DNA from: a virus
Length of the DNA stretch: 23,039 nt
Reading direction: 5' to 3' (one strand)
IMG/VR virus record: IMGVR_UViG_3300042509_000402
Location: 1-23,039 of that record
Under the pieces are notes generated by a model, which was not told where the DNA came from, did no database searches, and saw only the letters and a program-made list of their open reading frames with translations. The position numbers and the translations under genes are program-made. How positions within the stretch are numbered: the stretch's first letter is position 1; each line of letters begins with the position of its first letter. Positions 12,001 to 23,019 of this stretch are shown one piece after another.

Positions 12001-12015
12001 TATAAAGTAAACAAA

Positions 12016-12088
12016 CAGGCACGGCTGGACTCGAACCAGCAATAGACAACTTAGAAGGTTGGTGCATTATCCATTATGCTACGTGCCC
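12016..12088 (-). tRNA. tRNA-Arg (anticodon TCT)
   Basis: The acceptor GGGCACG/CGTGCCT closes with a G1-U72 pair, the anticodon loop is CTTCTAA, and the T-arm GCTGG/CCAGC is perfect. Anticodon TCT reads AGA arginine codons, rare in GC-rich hosts. Discriminator G, no CCA. A sigma70-type promoter lies at 12117-12145; the hairpin at 12091-12113 lies between it and the tRNA. Confidence 0.95.
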
Positions 12089-12090
12089 AT

Positions 12091-12454: not shown

Positions 12455-12484
12455 CACAGAAAAGGGAATCACCCCTCTTCTGTG
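12455..12484 (-). other. 12-bp hairpin with the cobS stop codon in its loop
   Basis: On the minus strand CACAGAAGAGGG (12473-12484) pairs with CCCTTTTCTGTG (12455-12466), with one G-U pair, around a 6-nt loop. The loop contains the TGA stop of cobS (12469-12471). No U-run follows, so it may stabilise the mRNA end or slow ribosomes rather than terminate. Confidence 0.6.
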
Positions 12485-13602
12485 TTGTTTTGTTGAAATT
12501 CTGCGTCAATTTTGTCGTAGAGTTCAACAAATGTTGCTTTCGTCTCATCATCAAAACGATTCAGACAAACTTTGAGTGCTTTGTCTTTCTTACCAAAGAT
12601 AGAATATGCTTTGATAATATGAACCAGACGACGAGTAGAAATCACTTCATCAATACCACCATCAGCAAAGGTCTTACGAATAATCTCAGACCAAGTGCAG
12701 AGGTGTTTGATGAAATCGGTGTGCTCACCAATCATAGGAATATTAAGTGATTCTGCCACCTTTGTCAAGATTTTGGTTTCCACAGAAATAGTAGGATATT
12801 CCTGCTCGAAGGTAATCGGGAATCGTTCCAAGAATGCTTCATTCAGCACATTGGTGCCGATGAAACGACCATCATCAGAACCTTTACCTTTGGTGTTTGC
12901 AGTTGCAATCACATTGAATCCTGCCTTTGGAGCAACGTGCTTGCCAATCTTCTTCAGAAAGACACCTTTACCTTCCAGAACAGATTGCAGACACATAATC
13001 TTGTTAGATGCCAGGTCAATCTCATCCAGAAGAAGAATTGCACCACGTTCCATTGCTTCAACCACAGGACCATTGTGCCATACAGTTTCCCCATTCACAA
13101 GCCTAAATCCACCAATCAGGTCATCCTCATCAGTTTCAACGGTGATATTGACACGAATCAGTTCCCGATTAAGTTGGGCACAAGACTGTTCCACACCGAA
13201 AGTTTTTCCGTTGCCAGAAAGACCAGTGATGAAAGAAGGATAGAATAGACCAGACTGAATAACTTTCTTAATATCCGAAAAGTTACCAAAGCTGACGAAG
13301 GTAGCATCTTTTTTGGGAATAAGGTTTTGAATAACAGAGGTCATAGTTGCCACACCAGGAACCGTATCGGAACCTTCTGCAGCAGGAGAGTTGTAAGTTT
13401 CTTCAAGTTCTTGCACGGTTGCCTCCAGATTCCATTTACCACGACCCACCTTATATTGATTCAGATACTTGGAAAGAGTCGCATAAGTTGTATTGAGTTG
13501 CGTTGCAACTTCTTTAACGGCATCAGCACCAAACTCGGTGCCAAACTTTTCTTTCAGAATAGAGATTGCTTGGTCGGTCATAATGTTAGATTTGCTAGGC
13601 AT
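12469..13602 (-). CDS. cobS: CobS-like (MoxR-type) AAA+ ATPase
   Basis: A 377-aa protein with Walker A GLSGNGKT (127-134), Walker B ILLLDEID (189-196) and sensor-1-like IATANT (232-237), fitting the CobS/MoxR branch of AAA+ ATPases. The N-terminal 60 residues (AVKEVATQLNTTYATLSKYL) look like a helix-turn-helix, an addition to the core. Cellular CobS works with CobT and CobN to insert cobalt; here no CobN is in the window, so chaperone or remodelling of a partner is more likely. The VWA gene directly upstream is the likely partner. cobS homologues are typical of T4-like cyanophages. Promoter: extended -10 at 13625-13633. Confidence 0.9.
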   Translation of the reverse strand: MPSKSNIMTDQAISILKEKFGTEFGADAVKEVATQLNTTYATLSKYLNQYKVGRGKWNLEATVQELEETYNSPAAEGSDTVPGVATMTSVIQNLIPKKDATFVSFGNFSDIKKVIQSGLFYPSFITGLSGNGKTFGVEQSCAQLNRELIRVNITVETDEDDLIGGFRLVNGETVWHNGPVVEAMERGAILLLDEIDLASNKIMCLQSVLEGKGVFLKKIGKHVAPKAGFNVIATANTKGKGSDDGRFIGTNVLNEAFLERFPITFEQEYPTISVETKILTKVAESLNIPMIGEHTDFIKHLCTWSEIIRKTFADGGIDEVISTRRLVHIIKAYSIFGKKDKALKVCLNRFDDETKATFVELYDKIDAEFQQNNTEEG

Positions 13603-13680: not shown

Positions 13681-15864
13681 CTAGGCAATCATTTCAACAA
13701 AAGAACCCAGAAGTTTTTTGTTAGTCCTTTTCTTGCCAAGAACTTTAGTGAAGGCAGATTTGATTTGTGCCTTGGTCGCATTCTCGGGAACAGAGAACTC
13801 CTCTTCTTGTGCAAGAGAACTAGAAGCAATCACATTGAATTGGTCAAATCCAGTATTATCAAAACGAACACATTGGTTCTTTTTGTATTCTGATTTCACA
13901 CTATCATAGTTGTTATAATCACCACCATACCAACGATAGCAGGTTTGAAAATCACGACTAGGAGTGATACGGAAATTGATGAGATTCACAGTTGGAAACT
14001 TATCCTTTACCGTTTGAAGAAGAACTTTCGCATAACGAGGGAAATTATCATAATTCAGGGGAGGATAAATCCGACCAGATTTACGATCACGAATTGCAGT
14101 ACGATTGTACTTTGTATGACCGATATAAGAATCACTATCATACTTTTTACGTTCAACCGTCACAGAATTTTGATACCCTTCACCATCAGTCAGAAAAATA
14201 ACATTGACCTTCTGCAGTTTATTCTTTGCCTGAAAATCAGGAATCAAAGAATGAAGAGCAATGATACTTTCACCAATCGGAGAACCAGACAGGTCAAGAT
14301 GAGGAGGAACAGCACCAGACCGTTTCTGATAAGAATAGCAAGCAACCCAAATGTTCTTGAGTTGTTCTTCAAGAACACGATTATTGGTCTTGCTGGTGAA
14401 AAAATTCATCAGACGGAAAGAGTTTTCAGGTGCAAGAACACCAGCAACTTTTTCATAAACAGGAGGATGATTCGGTTGCAGTTCCACATAAGAATTGCAA
14501 TCTACAGTAAAGGCATAAACCTCAAAAGGAATATTTACTTTACGGCAAAACCAAATGAGATTTAGAAGTTGCTTATAAGCATCCAGAATGAATTCATTCA
14601 TTGAACCAGACCAGTCAAGAATAAAAATGAGACCGTGATTCTTACCATCAGGAACCACAGAGACCTTCTTAAACAGGTCTTCATTGAACTTATAGGTATG
14701 AAGTTTCTGTGTATCCAGAACACCAGTACGAGCGGTGCTAGAACGAGCATACTGGTCTGCAGATTTCTTACACTCAAACTCTTTTACAAGATAAGAAACT
14801 TCTTTTTCTGCAGACTTCTTGTAAATATTGTATTCTTTACAAGCAGCATCATAGGAATCACGAATCCAACTATTATTATTTGTATAGAACTCCTTTGCTT
14901 TACGATGAATAAACTCATTCGGAATCACCATCGTTTCAAGATTCATTTTGGGAAGTTCCACATAATGAGTTTCATGAGCATACTTATCCACAAGGTCCTG
15001 AGACTTCTCATCAAAAGAACGAGAAGTTTTGGATTTCAATTCATCTTTATTAGTTTCTCCGTGCTGATTACTTGCTTCCTGACCAAAACCACCACCATTT
15101 GGTGCTTCCAGAGACTTATTCATCTCATCACCAAAGGATTCACCATCAGTTTGAGACTGTCCCTGAGAATCTTGTTCTAGTTCAGTTTTATTCTGTCCGT
15201 CCTGATTCTCACCATCTTCAGAAGATTGCGATTGAGGAGTTTCAACTTCTTCCCCACCAGAACCAGACATTTCATCTTCACCACCAGCACTGGGCATAGA
15301 ATCTACCTTCTGACGTTTGTATTGCACGAACTCGGTAATTTCACGAGCAAGTTGCAGCACTTCATCAAAGGTTTCGGTACAAGAAGCACGAGTCAGAAAC
15401 TCATTTTCTTCATCACCGAAAGCAATGTTATGAAATGCACCGATCTTGAAGTACAGATTGATTCGGTCAATAAAACTCAAATCATCCAGTTTCTCATCCT
15501 TAGTGGAGAAGAAATCATCGTTGTTGAGTTCATTATAACCATTATAGAAAGTCCGAGAAAGACCAGGATACTTTTTCTTCATCAGACGTTCTACACGAAC
15601 ATCTTCCAGAACATTCACGAAGTCTTTAGGAACTTCAGGATATTCTTCAGTCCAGTCAATATTATCGGTATAAAGTGCGTGACCCACTTCATGACCAACA
15701 AGAAGGTCATAAACAATCGCAGATGCTTTATCCCAGGTAGGAAGAGTCAACACACGACGATCCACATCAAACATTGCAGTCGGAACTTTTTTGTGCTCGA
15801 TGATAAGATTCTCAGTTGCCAGACATTTGGCAAGAGAACCCTTGACTTCTAGATTTACGGACAT
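13681..15864 (-). CDS. VWA-domain protein with HExxH metallopeptidase-like N-terminus (CobT-like)
   Basis: A 727-aa protein. The N-terminal part has HEVGH (58-62) and, 25 residues on, NVLEDVRVERL (84-94), the layout of a zinc metallopeptidase with a Glu third ligand. An acidic Gln/Gly/Ser-rich linker spans about 190-290. The C-terminal VWA domain has the metal-ion-dependent adhesion motif DWSGS (417-421) and TDG at about 560. CobT-type proteins pair with CobS-type ATPases, and cobS lies next downstream with a 78-bp gap. Whether the peptidase site is active, and what it acts on, is unknown. Its own extended -10 (15889-15897) follows the terminator at 15899-15920. Confidence 0.88.
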   Translation of the reverse strand: MSVNLEVKGSLAKCLATENLIIEHKKVPTAMFDVDRRVLTLPTWDKASAIVYDLLVGHEVGHALYTDNIDWTEEYPEVPKDFVNVLEDVRVERLMKKKYPGLSRTFYNGYNELNNDDFFSTKDEKLDDLSFIDRINLYFKIGAFHNIAFGDEENEFLTRASCTETFDEVLQLAREITEFVQYKRQKVDSMPSAGGEDEMSGSGGEEVETPQSQSSEDGENQDGQNKTELEQDSQGQSQTDGESFGDEMNKSLEAPNGGGFGQEASNQHGETNKDELKSKTSRSFDEKSQDLVDKYAHETHYVELPKMNLETMVIPNEFIHRKAKEFYTNNNSWIRDSYDAACKEYNIYKKSAEKEVSYLVKEFECKKSADQYARSSTARTGVLDTQKLHTYKFNEDLFKKVSVVPDGKNHGLIFILDWSGSMNEFILDAYKQLLNLIWFCRKVNIPFEVYAFTVDCNSYVELQPNHPPVYEKVAGVLAPENSFRLMNFFTSKTNNRVLEEQLKNIWVACYSYQKRSGAVPPHLDLSGSPIGESIIALHSLIPDFQAKNKLQKVNVIFLTDGEGYQNSVTVERKKYDSDSYIGHTKYNRTAIRDRKSGRIYPPLNYDNFPRYAKVLLQTVKDKFPTVNLINFRITPSRDFQTCYRWYGGDYNNYDSVKSEYKKNQCVRFDNTGFDQFNVIASSSLAQEEEFSVPENATKAQIKSAFTKVLGKKRTNKKLLGSFVEMIA

Positions 15865-15888: not shown

Positions 15889-15897
15889 ATCATAACA
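15889..15897 (-). promoter_or_regulatory. extended -10 promoter (TGTTATGAT) of the VWA gene
   Basis: TGT-TATGAT on the minus strand, 24 bp before the ATG at 15864 and immediately downstream of the terminator U-run. No matching -35 is seen. Confidence 0.55.
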
Positions 15898-15898
15898 G

Positions 15899-15920
15899 AA
15901 AAAAGGGGGCAGTTGCCCCC
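15899..15920 (-). terminator. intrinsic terminator of the putative small RNA
   Basis: On the minus strand GGGGGC, loop AACT and GCCCCC form a perfect GC stem, directly followed by six T. It is the strongest terminator in the window. Confidence 0.9.
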
Positions 15921-15993
15921 CAATGTTCCACCTCGAAAACCGTCCCCACCACAGAACGGGTCTTACAACTCAAAGATACAAAGTTGTGAAGAC
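15899..15993 (-). ncRNA. putative 95-nt structured small RNA
   Basis: A consensus promoter (16000-16028) predicts a start at G15993, and an intrinsic terminator ends at 15899; no open frame of note lies between. The RNA would begin with a hairpin, GTCTT and ACAACT pairing with AGTTGT and AAGAC (15960-15993, 11 bp with one bulged base), then a short imperfect stem (CCGTTC/GGACGG), a single-stranded GAGGTGGAAC segment, and the terminator stem. It is either a free-standing regulatory RNA or an attenuated leader of the VWA gene. Prediction only. Confidence 0.55.
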
Positions 15994-15999
15994 TTATTC

Positions 16000-16028
16000 A
16001 TCATACATCAAACAATTTTAGGTGTCAA
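16000..16028 (-). promoter_or_regulatory. leftward sigma70 consensus promoter
   Basis: -35 TTGACA (16023-16028), 17-bp spacer, -10 TATGAT (16000-16005). Predicted start G15993. It faces the terminator at 15899 with no gene between. Its -35 forms a dyad with that of the opposite promoter. Confidence 0.78.
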
Positions 16029-16031
16029 GTG

Positions 16032-16060
16032 TTGACAAGATATCAAAATCTACCTAAAAT
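16032..16060 (+). promoter_or_regulatory. rightward sigma70-type promoter, divergent and antisense to genes
   Basis: On the plus strand -35 TTGACA (16032-16037), 17-bp spacer, -10 TAAAAT (16055-16060), predicted start G16067. It is the only strong plus-strand promoter I see. A transcript would run antisense to the 148-aa gene. The two -35 boxes form TGTCAA-GTG-TTGACA. A 9-bp inverted repeat ATTTTAGGT/ACCTAAAAT (16015-16023 and 16052-16060) frames the region. Confidence 0.5.
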
Positions 16061-16084
16061 CACTCTGTTGGGTTTGAAGATAAA

Positions 16085-16531
16085 TTATATCTCAGTATCT
16101 ATAGGTCTTTCCCATTCAGTACCTTCTTGAACTATACCATCTCCATCACCATCCCTTGCGTCAGGGTTATAACCATCAGCAATTTTTTCTTCTAATGTTT
16201 GTTCTATAGAAACATTCTCCCAAGGAAGAGGCAATGAAATGATCGGAGGATTGTGTTGTGATGCGATTTCATTTGAAAGTCTCATTTGCAAATAATCAAC
16301 ATCAAGGTTACTTTCTAACCAACCAATCACAGTTTCTTTTGTTAAAGTTGAGTAATCAAAAAATTCTTCTGAACTTGGTGATGAGAGAGGATAAGAATTA
16401 GAACATTCTGCAGAATATCCATTCTCATCTTGTGCTTTTAGTCCCCAATTGATAACTTTTACTACGTTCGTCAATCCATTTTCCGATGGGGCACAATCCA
16501 ATCTAGAAATACTCCAAGTATAAGTAATCAT
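16085..16531 (-). CDS. phage structural-type protein with C-terminal EF-hand-like motif
   Basis: A 148-aa protein. The start MITYTWSISRLDCAPSENGL and the later NPPIISLPLPW resemble a small family of T4-like phage proteins found near tail and neck genes (the DUF7936 type, by memory). The last 30 residues, DGYNPDARDGDGDGIVQEGT, form an acidic D-x-D-x-D-G calcium-binding-like loop followed by EWERP, an add-on outside that core. It ends the string that begins with the fibre genes, after the dioxygenase. Likely a virion or tail-associated protein. Confidence 0.8.
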   Translation of the reverse strand: MITYTWSISRLDCAPSENGLTNVVKVINWGLKAQDENGYSAECSNSYPLSSPSSEEFFDYSTLTKETVIGWLESNLDVDYLQMRLSNEIASQHNPPIISLPLPWENVSIEQTLEEKIADGYNPDARDGDGDGIVQEGTEWERPIDTEI

Positions 16532-17209: not shown

Positions 17210-17217
17210 TATTTATC
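17210..17217 (-). promoter_or_regulatory. T4-type late promoter GATAAATA
   Basis: It lies 21 nt before the ATG at 17188 and overlaps the stop codon of the 736-aa fibre gene (17213-17215), giving the dioxygenase its own late start. Confidence 0.62.
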
Positions 17218-19423
17218 CTATTGGTGTATTGGCAGTTGCTGCTAATTGACTTCTCGCTAAACTTAATGGTCCTCTTGGTGATGCTTGAACTGAATCATTA
17301 GAGAAATCTAAACGGTTTACTGTTGCTACTGTTGTTGGAGTAGATCCTCCACCAAACCAACCATAGTTAGAGTTTCCTGATGCTGCTAAATCATCGGTTG
17401 CAGCAATAAATGAAGATCTAACTGATGCTGCTACGGAATCATTAGAGAAATTTATACGGTCTATTCTTGTGGATCTTGTTGCTATAACAATCCCACCACC
17501 AAACCATCCATAATCATAGTTTCCTGTTGCTGCTAAAGATCTTCTTCCTTGAGATAAACTGCCTCTAGTTGATAATGAATTTACATCATTTGAAAAATCC
17601 AAACGATTAACACCATTACTAGCAAACCAACCATAATTAAAGTTTCCAACTGCTGCTTCATTAACTTGAATTAATGGACTTGAATTTCTAATATTTATTC
17701 TTGTATCATTAGAAAAATTAATTCTATCTATTCTTGATATAGTTGACGGAGTTGATCCAGGATTAAGACCACCAGCAAACCAACCATAATTAGAATTGCT
17801 TACTGCTGCAGTTACGGCTCTTTCTATAGTTAATGGACTTCTCACAGATGCAGTTACAGAATCATTAGAGAAATTTATACGTTCCACTGTTGATACTGGT
17901 GTTGGTACAGCAGTTCTTCCACCACCAATCCAACCATAGTTAGAGTTTCCTGTTGCTGCTAAATATCCTCTTCCCGCAGTCAATGAACCTCTAGGTGATG
18001 CTGTCGCAGAATCATTAGAGAAATCTATACGATCTACTACTGCTGAAAATGTTGGAGATATAAAACCACCACCAAACCAGCCATAAGTTCCAGTTTTTGG
18101 AATAGTAGTACTGCGAGATCTTGCCTGTCCTGATGTTGCCCCCCCACTACCTTTTGCTGAACTTAATGGACCTCTTATATTTGCAGTTCCAGTATCATTT
18201 GAGAAATCTATACGATCTACTGATGATAATGGTGTTGTCTCTCCTGTTTTACCACCAAACCATCCATAGTTAGAGTTTCCTGTTGCTGTTAAATTATATC
18301 TTTCTTGACTCAATGGACCTCTCACTGATGCTGTTGCAGAATCATTGGAAAAATCTATACGGTCTACTATTGATGCTTGAGGTGCTGGAGTATAACCACC
18401 ACCAAACCAACCATAATTAGAGTTTCCTGTTGCTGCCATTCGACTTCTTTCTGAACTTAATGGACCTCTAACGGATGCTGTTGAGGAATCATTGGAAAAA
18501 TCTATACGGTCTACTACTGATACTGGTCCAGGAGCACCACCACCAAACCAACCATAGTTAGAGTTTCCTGTTGCTGCTAAAGAATCTTTTGCTAAACTTA
18601 ATGAACCTCTTGCGGATGCCGTTGAAGAATCATTAGAGAAATCTATACGATCTACTACTGATGAAAATGTTGGAGATGTACTACCACCAAACCAACCATA
18701 GTTAGAGTTTCCTGTTGCTGCTAATCTATGTCTTGTTGAACTTAATGGACCTCTAACGGATGCTGTTGAGGAATCATTAGAAAAATCTATACGGTCTACT
18801 GTTGATACTGCTGGAGATGCCTCAGGAGCACCACCACCGAACCAACCATAATTAGAGTTTCCTGTTGCTGCTAATCTATGTCTTGTTGAACTTAATGGAC
18901 CTCTAACGGATGCTGTTGAGGAATCATTAGAAAAATCTATACGGTCTACTGTTGATACTATTGCTGGTCCTGTGGTATAACCACCACCAAACCATCCGTG
19001 AGTTTGATTACTACTCCATGTTGTATTTGTAACAGTAGTATCAGTCACTAACATTACCAAACCAGTTGTGGTAATACCAGCAATCACAGAACCAACATAA
19101 CCAGTAGTTGCATAAGAAACTGTTGTAGTTCCTGCAAATCCTGTGACTACAAAATTTCCATTATATCCAGTATATGCAACACCAGCAGCATCTGCAAGAC
19201 CAGAAACTGCAATCTTTACACCAGTATAAAAAGGTGTAGTAGAAAGACCAGCAGTAGTAGAAAGAGTCAGAGTTGCAATACCAGCAGTAGTATCTAAAGT
19301 TCCACTTACAACTGTAATACCAGCACCAGCAGCAGTAGAATTAATATCTACAGCAGAAACCGTAACTGGATTTGATACATTTAGAAAAAATCCATCAAGA
19401 CCAAATACGTCTCCTGCTGGCAT
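17213..19423 (-). CDS. Kelch-like repeat fibre protein (12 repeats, 6+6)
   Basis: A 736-aa protein. Residues 1 to about 140 are Thr/Ser/Gly/Ala-rich beta sequence (Ig- or fibre-like: TTAGIATLTLSTTAG). Then follow 12 repeats of about 50 aa on the plan YGWFGGG...VDRIDFSND..TAS.RGPLS..R..LAATGNSN. The GG, V-D-R and R...A pattern fits a Kelch beta-propeller blade. Repeat 6 ends in an irregular insert (SGQARSRSTTIPKTGT), splitting the array 6+6. Repeats 1 and 2 share 108 identical bases. AAGGAG lies 7 nt before the ATG. Likely a tail fibre or adhesin on the virion binding host sugars; it follows the glycosyltransferase gene by 11 bp. Confidence 0.85.
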   Translation of the reverse strand: MPAGDVFGLDGFFLNVSNPVTVSAVDINSTAAGAGITVVSGTLDTTAGIATLTLSTTAGLSTTPFYTGVKIAVSGLADAAGVAYTGYNGNFVVTGFAGTTTVSYATTGYVGSVIAGITTTGLVMLVTDTTVTNTTWSSNQTHGWFGGGYTTGPAIVSTVDRIDFSNDSSTASVRGPLSSTRHRLAATGNSNYGWFGGGAPEASPAVSTVDRIDFSNDSSTASVRGPLSSTRHRLAATGNSNYGWFGGSTSPTFSSVVDRIDFSNDSSTASARGSLSLAKDSLAATGNSNYGWFGGGAPGPVSVVDRIDFSNDSSTASVRGPLSSERSRMAATGNSNYGWFGGGYTPAPQASIVDRIDFSNDSATASVRGPLSQERYNLTATGNSNYGWFGGKTGETTPLSSVDRIDFSNDTGTANIRGPLSSAKGSGGATSGQARSRSTTIPKTGTYGWFGGGFISPTFSAVVDRIDFSNDSATASPRGSLTAGRGYLAATGNSNYGWIGGGRTAVPTPVSTVERINFSNDSVTASVRSPLTIERAVTAAVSNSNYGWFAGGLNPGSTPSTISRIDRINFSNDTRINIRNSSPLIQVNEAAVGNFNYGWFASNGVNRLDFSNDVNSLSTRGSLSQGRRSLAATGNYDYGWFGGGIVIATRSTRIDRINFSNDSVAASVRSSFIAATDDLAASGNSNYGWFGGGSTPTTVATVNRLDFSNDSVQASPRGPLSLARSQLAATANTPIG
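18702..18959. repeat. 108-bp exact tandem repeat, period 150 bp
   Basis: 18702-18809 and 18852-18959 are identical over 108 bp, covering most of repeats 2 and 1 of the fibre gene. The period, 150 bp, is one 50-aa blade. It marks a recent blade duplication or gene conversion. Confidence 0.85.
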
Positions 19424-21171: not shown

Positions 21172-23019
21172 TTACCTTGTTGTGTTGGAGGTTGCATCTA
21201 AATTATCTCTTGCCAAAGTTAATGGATTTCTTATTGCTATTGTTGCTAAATCATTCGAGAAATCTATACGGTCTACTGTTGATATACGTGTTGGAGTAGA
21301 ACCACCACCAAACCAACCATAGTTAGAGTTTCCTGTTGCTCCCATTCTACCTTTTGCGAGAGATAATGTTGCTCTTCTCAATGGAACTGCTAAATCATTT
21401 GCAAAATCTATACGGTCTACAACTGACGTATGACTTGGAGACCCACCACCAAACCAACCATAGTTAGAGTTTCCTGTTGCTGCGTCATTAAATCGTGATT
21501 CTAAAAATGAACCTCTTGGTGATGGTGATGTTAAATCATTTGAAAAATTAATACGCCGCACAACAACAGAAAGTCCCCCACCAAACCAACCATAGTTAGA
21601 GTTTCCTGTTGCTGATAAACCAGGAGCTGCAGCAGGAAATGCAGTTCTTACCGATGCTGTTGCTAAATCATTCGAGAAATCTATACGGTCTACTCTACCT
21701 ATTGGAGAATCTCCACCACCAAACCAACCATAGTTAGAATTTCCTGTTGCTGCTAAAAAATCTCTTGCTAAACTCAATGAACCTCTTTGTGATGCTGTGG
21801 GAGAATCATTTGAAAAATCTATACGTTCTACTGTAGATTTTGATCCTGGACCACCACCACCAAACCAACCATAATTAGAGTTTCCTGTTGCTGCCATATA
21901 ATATCTGGATGCATTCAATGAACCTCTTAGTGATGCTGCTGATAAATCATTCGAGAAATTTATGCGGTCTATTGTTGATACTGCTGGTAATAATCCACCA
22001 CCAAACCAACCAAAATTCCCTGCTTTTTGTCTGCGAATATTGAGAACTCCTGAGGTTGCTGCTAAATTACCTCTTGCAGTAAATAATAAACCTCTTGGTG
22101 ATGCTGATAATAAGTCATTTGAAAAATCAATACGATCCACTGTTGATACAAATGCTGGAGATTCTGCACCACCAAACCAACCATAATTAGAGTTTCCTGT
22201 TGCTGCCATAGTTGCTTTTGCCGACACCAATGAACCTCTTACAGATGCAGTTACAGAATCATTAGAGAAATCTATACGGTCTACTGTTGCTACTGATGCT
22301 GGACCAGGAATGAGACCTCCACCAAACCAACCATAGTTAGAGTTTCCTACTGCTGAAGATTTTTGTCTTGCCAAACTTAATGGACTTCTTGGTGTTAATA
22401 TTGCAAAATCATTTGAAAAATCTATGCGATCTACTGTCGAATAAACTGTAGGTGCAATATATCCACCACCAAACCAACCATAGTTAGAATTTCCTACCGA
22501 TGATAATCTTTCTCTTGCCAAACTTAACGAACCTCTTGGTGATGCTGTTGCAGAATCATTTGAGAAATCTATACGGTCTACTGTTGATACTACTGCTGGA
22601 GTTGTAATAGACCCACCACCAAACCAAGCATAATTAGAGTTTCCAGTTGATGCTAAATCTGCTTTTGCCAGATTTAATGAACCTTTTGTCGATGCTGTTA
22701 CAGAATCATTAGAGAAATCTATACGATTAACCGTTGATACTGAAGGAAATCCACCACCAAACCAACCATAATTAGAGTTTCCTGTTGCTGATAAACTTCG
22801 GTTTATTGAACTTAATGAACCTCTAGACTGTGCTGTTACAGAATCATTAGAGAAGTCTATACGATCTACTGATGATACATTTCCTGGTGTAATAAGTCCA
22901 CCACCAAACCAACCATAATTCGCAACGGATTCTTTATTCAACCAATCACCAGTCAGTCGTCCACTACGAACTTCTCCAAGTGTAAATGCTCCAAATATAT
23001 TGTTATTATTGATTGTCAT
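21172..23019 (-). CDS. Kelch-like repeat fibre protein (12 repeats, 6+6)
   Basis: A 615-aa protein with a short head (MTINNNNIFGAFTLGEVRSG, to about residue 34) followed by 12 Kelch-like blades of 43-57 aa on the same plan as the 736-aa protein. Again repeat 6 ends in an irregular insert (SGVLNIRRQKAGN) before repeat 7, so the array is 6+6. Several blades deviate (for example repeat 10, SVVVRRINFSND). It lacks the long beta-rich N-terminus of its paralogue. The ATG is 20 bp from the window end, so its promoter is not visible. Likely a tail fibre or capsid-surface adhesin. Confidence 0.85.
   Translation of the reverse strand: MTINNNNIFGAFTLGEVRSGRLTGDWLNKESVANYGWFGGGLITPGNVSSVDRIDFSNDSVTAQSRGSLSSINRSLSATGNSNYGWFGGGFPSVSTVNRIDFSNDSVTASTKGSLNLAKADLASTGNSNYAWFGGGSITTPAVVSTVDRIDFSNDSATASPRGSLSLARERLSSVGNSNYGWFGGGYIAPTVYSTVDRIDFSNDFAILTPRSPLSLARQKSSAVGNSNYGWFGGGLIPGPASVATVDRIDFSNDSVTASVRGSLVSAKATMAATGNSNYGWFGGAESPAFVSTVDRIDFSNDLLSASPRGLLFTARGNLAATSGVLNIRRQKAGNFGWFGGGLLPAVSTIDRINFSNDLSAASLRGSLNASRYYMAATGNSNYGWFGGGGPGSKSTVERIDFSNDSPTASQRGSLSLARDFLAATGNSNYGWFGGGDSPIGRVDRIDFSNDLATASVRTAFPAAAPGLSATGNSNYGWFGGGLSVVVRRINFSNDLTSPSPRGSFLESRFNDAATGNSNYGWFGGGSPSHTSVVDRIDFANDLAVPLRRATLSLAKGRMGATGNSNYGWFGGGSTPTRISTVDRIDFSNDLATIAIRNPLTLARDNLDATSNTTR

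Follow-up and report, generated by a model that had tools for sequence, protein, structure and literature searches.

Trans-acting small RNAs of phages are represented by PreS of phage lambda (~88 nt) and VpdS of phage VP882, both Hfq-dependent and both from temperate phages (PMC12197685). For T4-like cyanophages, the non-coding RNAs in the literature that we searched amount to a single cis-antisense RNA plus a handful of Rfam elements. The antisense RNA, CfrI of cyanophage S-PM2, is about 225 nt long and is cis-antisense to psbA and a homing endonuclease (PMC2984593), and abiF RNA (RF03085) and the glutamine, wcaG and manA RNAs have been reported in cyanophages (PMC9964418). A review of phage small RNAs names, for cyanophages, CfrI and Rfam elements of S-CREM1 (PMC12197685). 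The RNA described here is neither CfrI nor one of the S-CREM1 elements and constitutes a new family of phage-encoded small RNA. It resembles PreS and VpdS as a short phage RNA with a predicted action in trans, but it belongs to T4-like cyanophages and we found no link in sequence or structure. It shares with CfrI the status of a non-coding RNA of T4-like cyanophages, but it is not antisense to a gene, and S-PM2 has no convincing copy by our model R1, described below. Like the abiF, glutamine, wcaG and manA RNAs, it is a structured RNA of this phage group, with abiF and glutamine RNAs found in related loci, but none of their Rfam models matches it.

We studied a 23-kb DNA fragment (the window) from an uncultured virus (IMGVR_UViG_3300042509_000402, 23,039 nt). 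The features of the locus are as follows.

16032–16085, plus strand: divergent promoter TTGACA-17-TAAAAT (16032–16060) with conserved start ACTCTGTTGGGTTTGAAGATAA, adjoining the RNA promoter
16000–16028, minus strand: sigma70-type promoter of the small RNA, −35 TTGACA (16028–16023), 17-bp spacer, −10 TATGAT (16005–16000)
15899–15993, minus strand: small RNA gene, 95 nt, three hairpins, 94.6 bits against model R1
15960–15993, minus strand: hairpin P1, loop CUUUGUAUCUUUGAG at 15983–15969, with compensatory changes
15940–15959, minus strand: hairpin P2, CCGUUCU-GUGGUG-GGGACGG, loop at 15952–15947
15928–15932, minus strand: second unpaired GGUGG site, in the linker (GAGGUGGAAC)
15899–15921, minus strand: P3, the intrinsic terminator, GGGGGGC-AACU-GCCCCCU plus U-run, stem covarying in subgroup B
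15889–15897, minus strand: extended −10-like element TGTTATGAT in the interval between terminator and peptidase gene, retained whether or not a locus carries the RNA, probably a separate peptidase promoter
13681–15864, minus strand: VWA peptidase (phrog_459), 727 aa, downstream of the small RNA
12469–13602, minus strand: cobS-like AAA+ ATPase (phrog_249)

The sequence-only reading had placed a 95-nt RNA with a strong promoter before it and a strong terminator at its end, and all three lie where it put them on the minus strand: a TTGACA-17-TATGAT promoter matching the consensus at 11 of 12 positions, the RNA itself from 15993 to 15899, and a GC-rich terminator stem followed by six T. Its predicted start, G15993, is indeed the first base of hairpin 1 and lies 6 nt past the −10 element. 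The RNA is intergenic, between 16085 and 15864, and antisense to no open reading frame that is a gene. The earlier statement that no open reading frame fits also holds: reading the copies directly, we found none conserved across the indels of the RNA, and the GTG frame of the window copy, considered as a self-contained reading frame, is visibly broken in relatives. The peptidase and the ATPase of the window have matches in T4-like cyanophages. Elsewhere the window carries seven tRNA genes (at 1–368, 1855–2135 and 12015–12089) and, at 17213–19423 and 21172–23019 on the minus strand, two large proteins on either side of a glycosyltransferase, both assigned to the uncharacterised phrog_19111.

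Relatives of the RNA were sought in 80 IMG/VR loci gathered by the peptidase protein and thus blind to the RNA. Some 38 of the 80 have the same RNA upstream of the peptidase, and two subgroups stand out. Subgroup A, the window type, has P1 GUCUUCACAAC..GUUGUAAGAC, P2 CCGUC..GACGG and a linker with GGUGGAAC; subgroup B has P1 GUCUUGAGG.., P2 often CUGUC..GACAG, and GUGGUG in the terminator loop. Model R1, built from peptidase-locus copies only, finds one convincing copy per contig and also recovers a copy in the isolate Synechococcus phage S-SRM01 (MW015081.1, 10977–11077, E = 4.8e-11). That copy is unannotated; it is flanked by a hypothetical gene and a glutaredoxin gene and lies 136 kb away from the phage's own peptidase; its P2, CCUCUUC-GGUGGUGU-GAAGAGG, has a wholly different stem and an unchanged loop. 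The passages of the S-SRM01 paper returned by a term search report tRNA genes and no other RNA gene (PMC8557907).

Pattern scans that followed the S-SRM01 match yielded further copies, and a second model, R2, was built from those at glutaredoxin loci. R1 detects nearly all glutaredoxin-locus copies at E values of 1e-9 to 1e-14, and R2 detects the peptidase-locus copy of contig G001 at 1.9e-11. Because each model recovers the other locus's copies, the RNAs of the two loci form one family. We count 115 distinct copies, from contigs of uncultured T4-like cyanophages and the one isolate, a large and strongly covarying family in freshwater cyanophages, the viruses of freshwater picocyanobacteria. 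We ran R1, R2 or both over the full length of 16 phage records from cultures or single cells; S-SRM01 alone carries the RNA, and BLAST returned no other isolate. As S-SRM01 is an isolated phage, expression, targets and the effects of deletion are directly testable in it.

Direct BLAST of the window RNA against phage records gave chance matches only, and weak model matches in S-PM2, ACG-2014h and S-CRM01 were rejected on inspection as coding or terminator matches. No Rfam 15 family matches the small RNA at gathering or permissive thresholds, and the window as a whole matches tRNAs only. A host origin was considered and set aside, a strict pattern in genome_contigs and a model search of 300 Cyanobiaceae genomes, run without a positive control, having returned no copy. 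In contig L301 we observed a second, truncated copy (12585–12649, minus strand), about 11 kb from the full one, that runs into glycine-rich coding-like sequence past hairpin 2; in contigs such as L010–L013 seemingly the 3′ end of the RNA alone is left.

Folded alone, the window RNA forms three hairpins at a minimum free energy of −35.8 kcal/mol (z = −2.97 against dinucleotide shuffles), P1 pairing as GUCUU.ACAAC/GUUGU-AAGAC around a large loop and P2 as CCGUUCU/GGGACGG. This single sequence's fold is moderately unusual only. Comparison of homologues, by contrast, shows through paired changes that the structure lies far beyond chance. Subgroup A has 97% of cells paired and 4 pairs altered on both sides; subgroup B has 97% and 7 pairs, among them four in the terminator and one P2 pair with 11 compensatory sequences; and the glutaredoxin-locus subgroup has 87% and 8 pairs, all of these being counts over related, not independent, sequences. 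The main measures exceed all or nearly all shuffles and every slid register in all three subgroups, which is why we place the structure beyond chance; the covariation check proposed with the sequence-only reading thus came out positive. All three hairpins are present in the minimum-energy fold of 93 of the 115 copies, and the structure is conserved whatever the neighbouring gene, as in a stand-alone small RNA.

The signals that enclose the RNA are conserved with it. The full set of 115 copies was chosen on promoter geometry, so promoter conservation is read from the 52 copies gathered by loop patterns or protein homology. Each of the 52 has TTGACA spaced 17 bp from its −10 element; in the 50 whose RNA begins with GTC, the ones that could be scored, the RNA start lies 6 nt past that element. 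This conserved promoter appears to be of early type. Its own promoter and terminator thus enclose a short non-coding RNA, the arrangement of a stand-alone small RNA gene. An element acting as DNA, a recombination or homing target or a transcription insulator that forms hairpins by happenstance, might be suspected where homing endonuclease genes have been inserted beside the RNA in several phages and the locus is rearranged among phages. We consider it very improbable: the stems vary with pairing kept while the loops stay constant, whereas DNA target sites would retain sequence, and the fixed promoter-to-start distance, one-sided U-run and strand-specific promoter all speak of RNA.

The family has invariant unpaired parts. 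Over the 115 copies the P1 loop reads C-Y-U-U-G-U-A-N-C-U-U-U-G-R-G, that is C-Y-UUGUANCUUUG-R-G, and its closing Y-R pair is U-A in 67 copies and C-G in 48, with no mixed case. P2 presents the loop GUGGUG or GGUGG on 47 different complementary stems; GUGGUG accounts for 72 of the 115 copies and a GGUGG variant for most of the remainder. Two or more GGUGG-like sites, apart from one another, are present in 108 of 115 copies; subgroup A and the glutaredoxin-type RNAs have the second one in the linker, subgroup B in the loop of the terminator. Many copies were found with patterns fixing part of the P1 loop or the promoter, so those features are partly conserved by construction; in one set of copies from the pattern scans, neither the P2 loop nor the second GGUGG site had been part of the pattern. 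The single-stranded G-rich segment between hairpins, earlier put forward as a possible target-binding site, survives in part: two of the three subgroups conserve the linker GGUGG, yet conservation is stronger in the unpaired P1 and P2 loops.

We next consider what lies downstream. The gene that follows the RNA is glutaredoxin in 58 copies, the peptidase in 42 and another gene, mostly an endonuclease, in 11; in 4 copies it was not resolved. Several contigs have an endonuclease gene of GIY-YIG or HNH type (names assigned from sequence, without a family search) between the RNA and the peptidase, and these endonuclease-bearing contigs have a T4-late-type TATAAATA after the RNA terminator. Behind the terminator, 103 of the 115 copies have a promoter-like site, and contig G031 has a complete second promoter between small RNA and peptidase.

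These observations bear on the proposal that the RNA is a 5′ leader and that its terminator attenuates the genes behind it (peptidase and cobS here), with read-through controlled by a ligand, a protein or translation. The 42 copies that immediately precede a same-strand peptidase gene and end in a terminator would suit such a leader, and the confinement of copies to few loci leaves room for a locus-linked role. We nonetheless judge it improbable. In 69 copies the gene behind the RNA is glutaredoxin, a homing endonuclease or some other gene, so that no one downstream gene or pathway is common to all; a separate promoter-like element lies behind the terminator; and the three hairpins can coexist, as they do in most folds, and no terminator-opening alternative pairing was noticed in the folds inspected. 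Since unrelated genes follow the same RNA in different phages, it is maintained in its own right rather than as a leader. The sequence-only reading had left the choice between a free small RNA and a premature-termination leader of the VWA/cobS pair; the first option is favoured by the RNA's own promoter, terminator and conserved hairpins, and the second is not supported, given the copies before glutaredoxin and homing endonuclease genes and the peptidase's own promoter-like element. The RNA is also not essential, because close relatives (L008, L014 and L016) do without it; some close relatives that lack it keep the element TGNTATNNT before the peptidase.

Taken together, sequence and comparison indicate that this is probably a stand-alone, structured, trans-acting small RNA of T4-like cyanophages (Kyanoviridae), transcribed by host sigma70. 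The near-consensus promoter would be read by the host's RNA polymerase under its housekeeping sigma factor, presumably early in infection, with transcription running from the first base of hairpin 1 to the terminator formed by hairpin 3; the conserved geometry predicts a free RNA of about 95 nt. It would act in trans through its invariant unpaired parts, the P1 loop YUUGUANCUUUGR and the two GGUGG displays.

Within this stand-alone reading, we give about an even chance to base pairing with C-rich (CACCAC/CCACC-type) sites in host RNAs early in infection, which we prefer because a short G-rich loop held on a stable stem could act as a seed display. Comparison with the window's 27 translation starts gave no convincing pairing, and host RNAs are therefore the likelier partners. 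A pairing by eye of the P1 loop with the divergent leader (ACUCUGU..GUUUGAAG) was discarded, as it is broken in subgroup B.

Binding to an RNA-binding protein early in infection has a clearly smaller share within the stand-alone reading, yet it is a serious rival because the P1 loop has a free position and the second GGUGG can move. RNAs of the CsrB/RsmZ type titrate proteins, CsrB titrating CsrA, through a repeated short G-rich GGA motif in loops. The present RNA likewise shows a repeated short G-rich motif in loops, but the motif is GGUGG/GUGGUG and not GGA, and two sites stand in place of multiple GGA motifs. A decoy of this kind would use the P1 loop together with the GGUGG pair to titrate an RNA-binding protein or RNase of the host. 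It would explain why both sites are kept although the second shifts between linker and terminator loop, and a P1 loop whose shape is kept with one free position suits protein recognition; with only two sites per RNA, we regard such a decoy as rather unlikely. More broadly, and as a tentative suggestion that we hold with considerable doubt, the paired GGUGG displays and fixed P1 loop of the stand-alone RNA may titrate a host post-transcriptional regulator, either a protein or a small RNA, early in infection. If so, this widespread cyanophage RNA class would be an RNA-based tool of host take-over for lytic T4-like phages.

Several further elements were observed around these loci. In two loci without the RNA (L046:2284–2400 and L055:2878–2990), the peptidase is preceded by a different promoter with a leader and a terminator (..GGACACTTTGGGAACTG..), and this replacement element is possibly a second small RNA. 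An abiF RNA (RF03085) lies directly before a tRNA gene, downstream of peptidase and cobS, in L052:6684–6720 and L055:6789–6825. A glutamine riboswitch (RF01739) occurs in contigs with the glutaredoxin-locus RNA (L316:1830–1876 and L331:3330–3433, both minus strand). A divergent TTGACA-17-TANNAT promoter with the conserved transcript start ACTCTGTYRGGKTTGAAGAWA abuts the RNA promoter in the window (16032–16085, plus strand), in L116:320–400 and in L235, L236 and L238. In the cultured phages DSL-LC02 and ACG-2014h and in other contigs, gp55, which encodes the late sigma factor, has a similar element upstream, and an element like it faces the peptidase gene in L046, L047 and L055.
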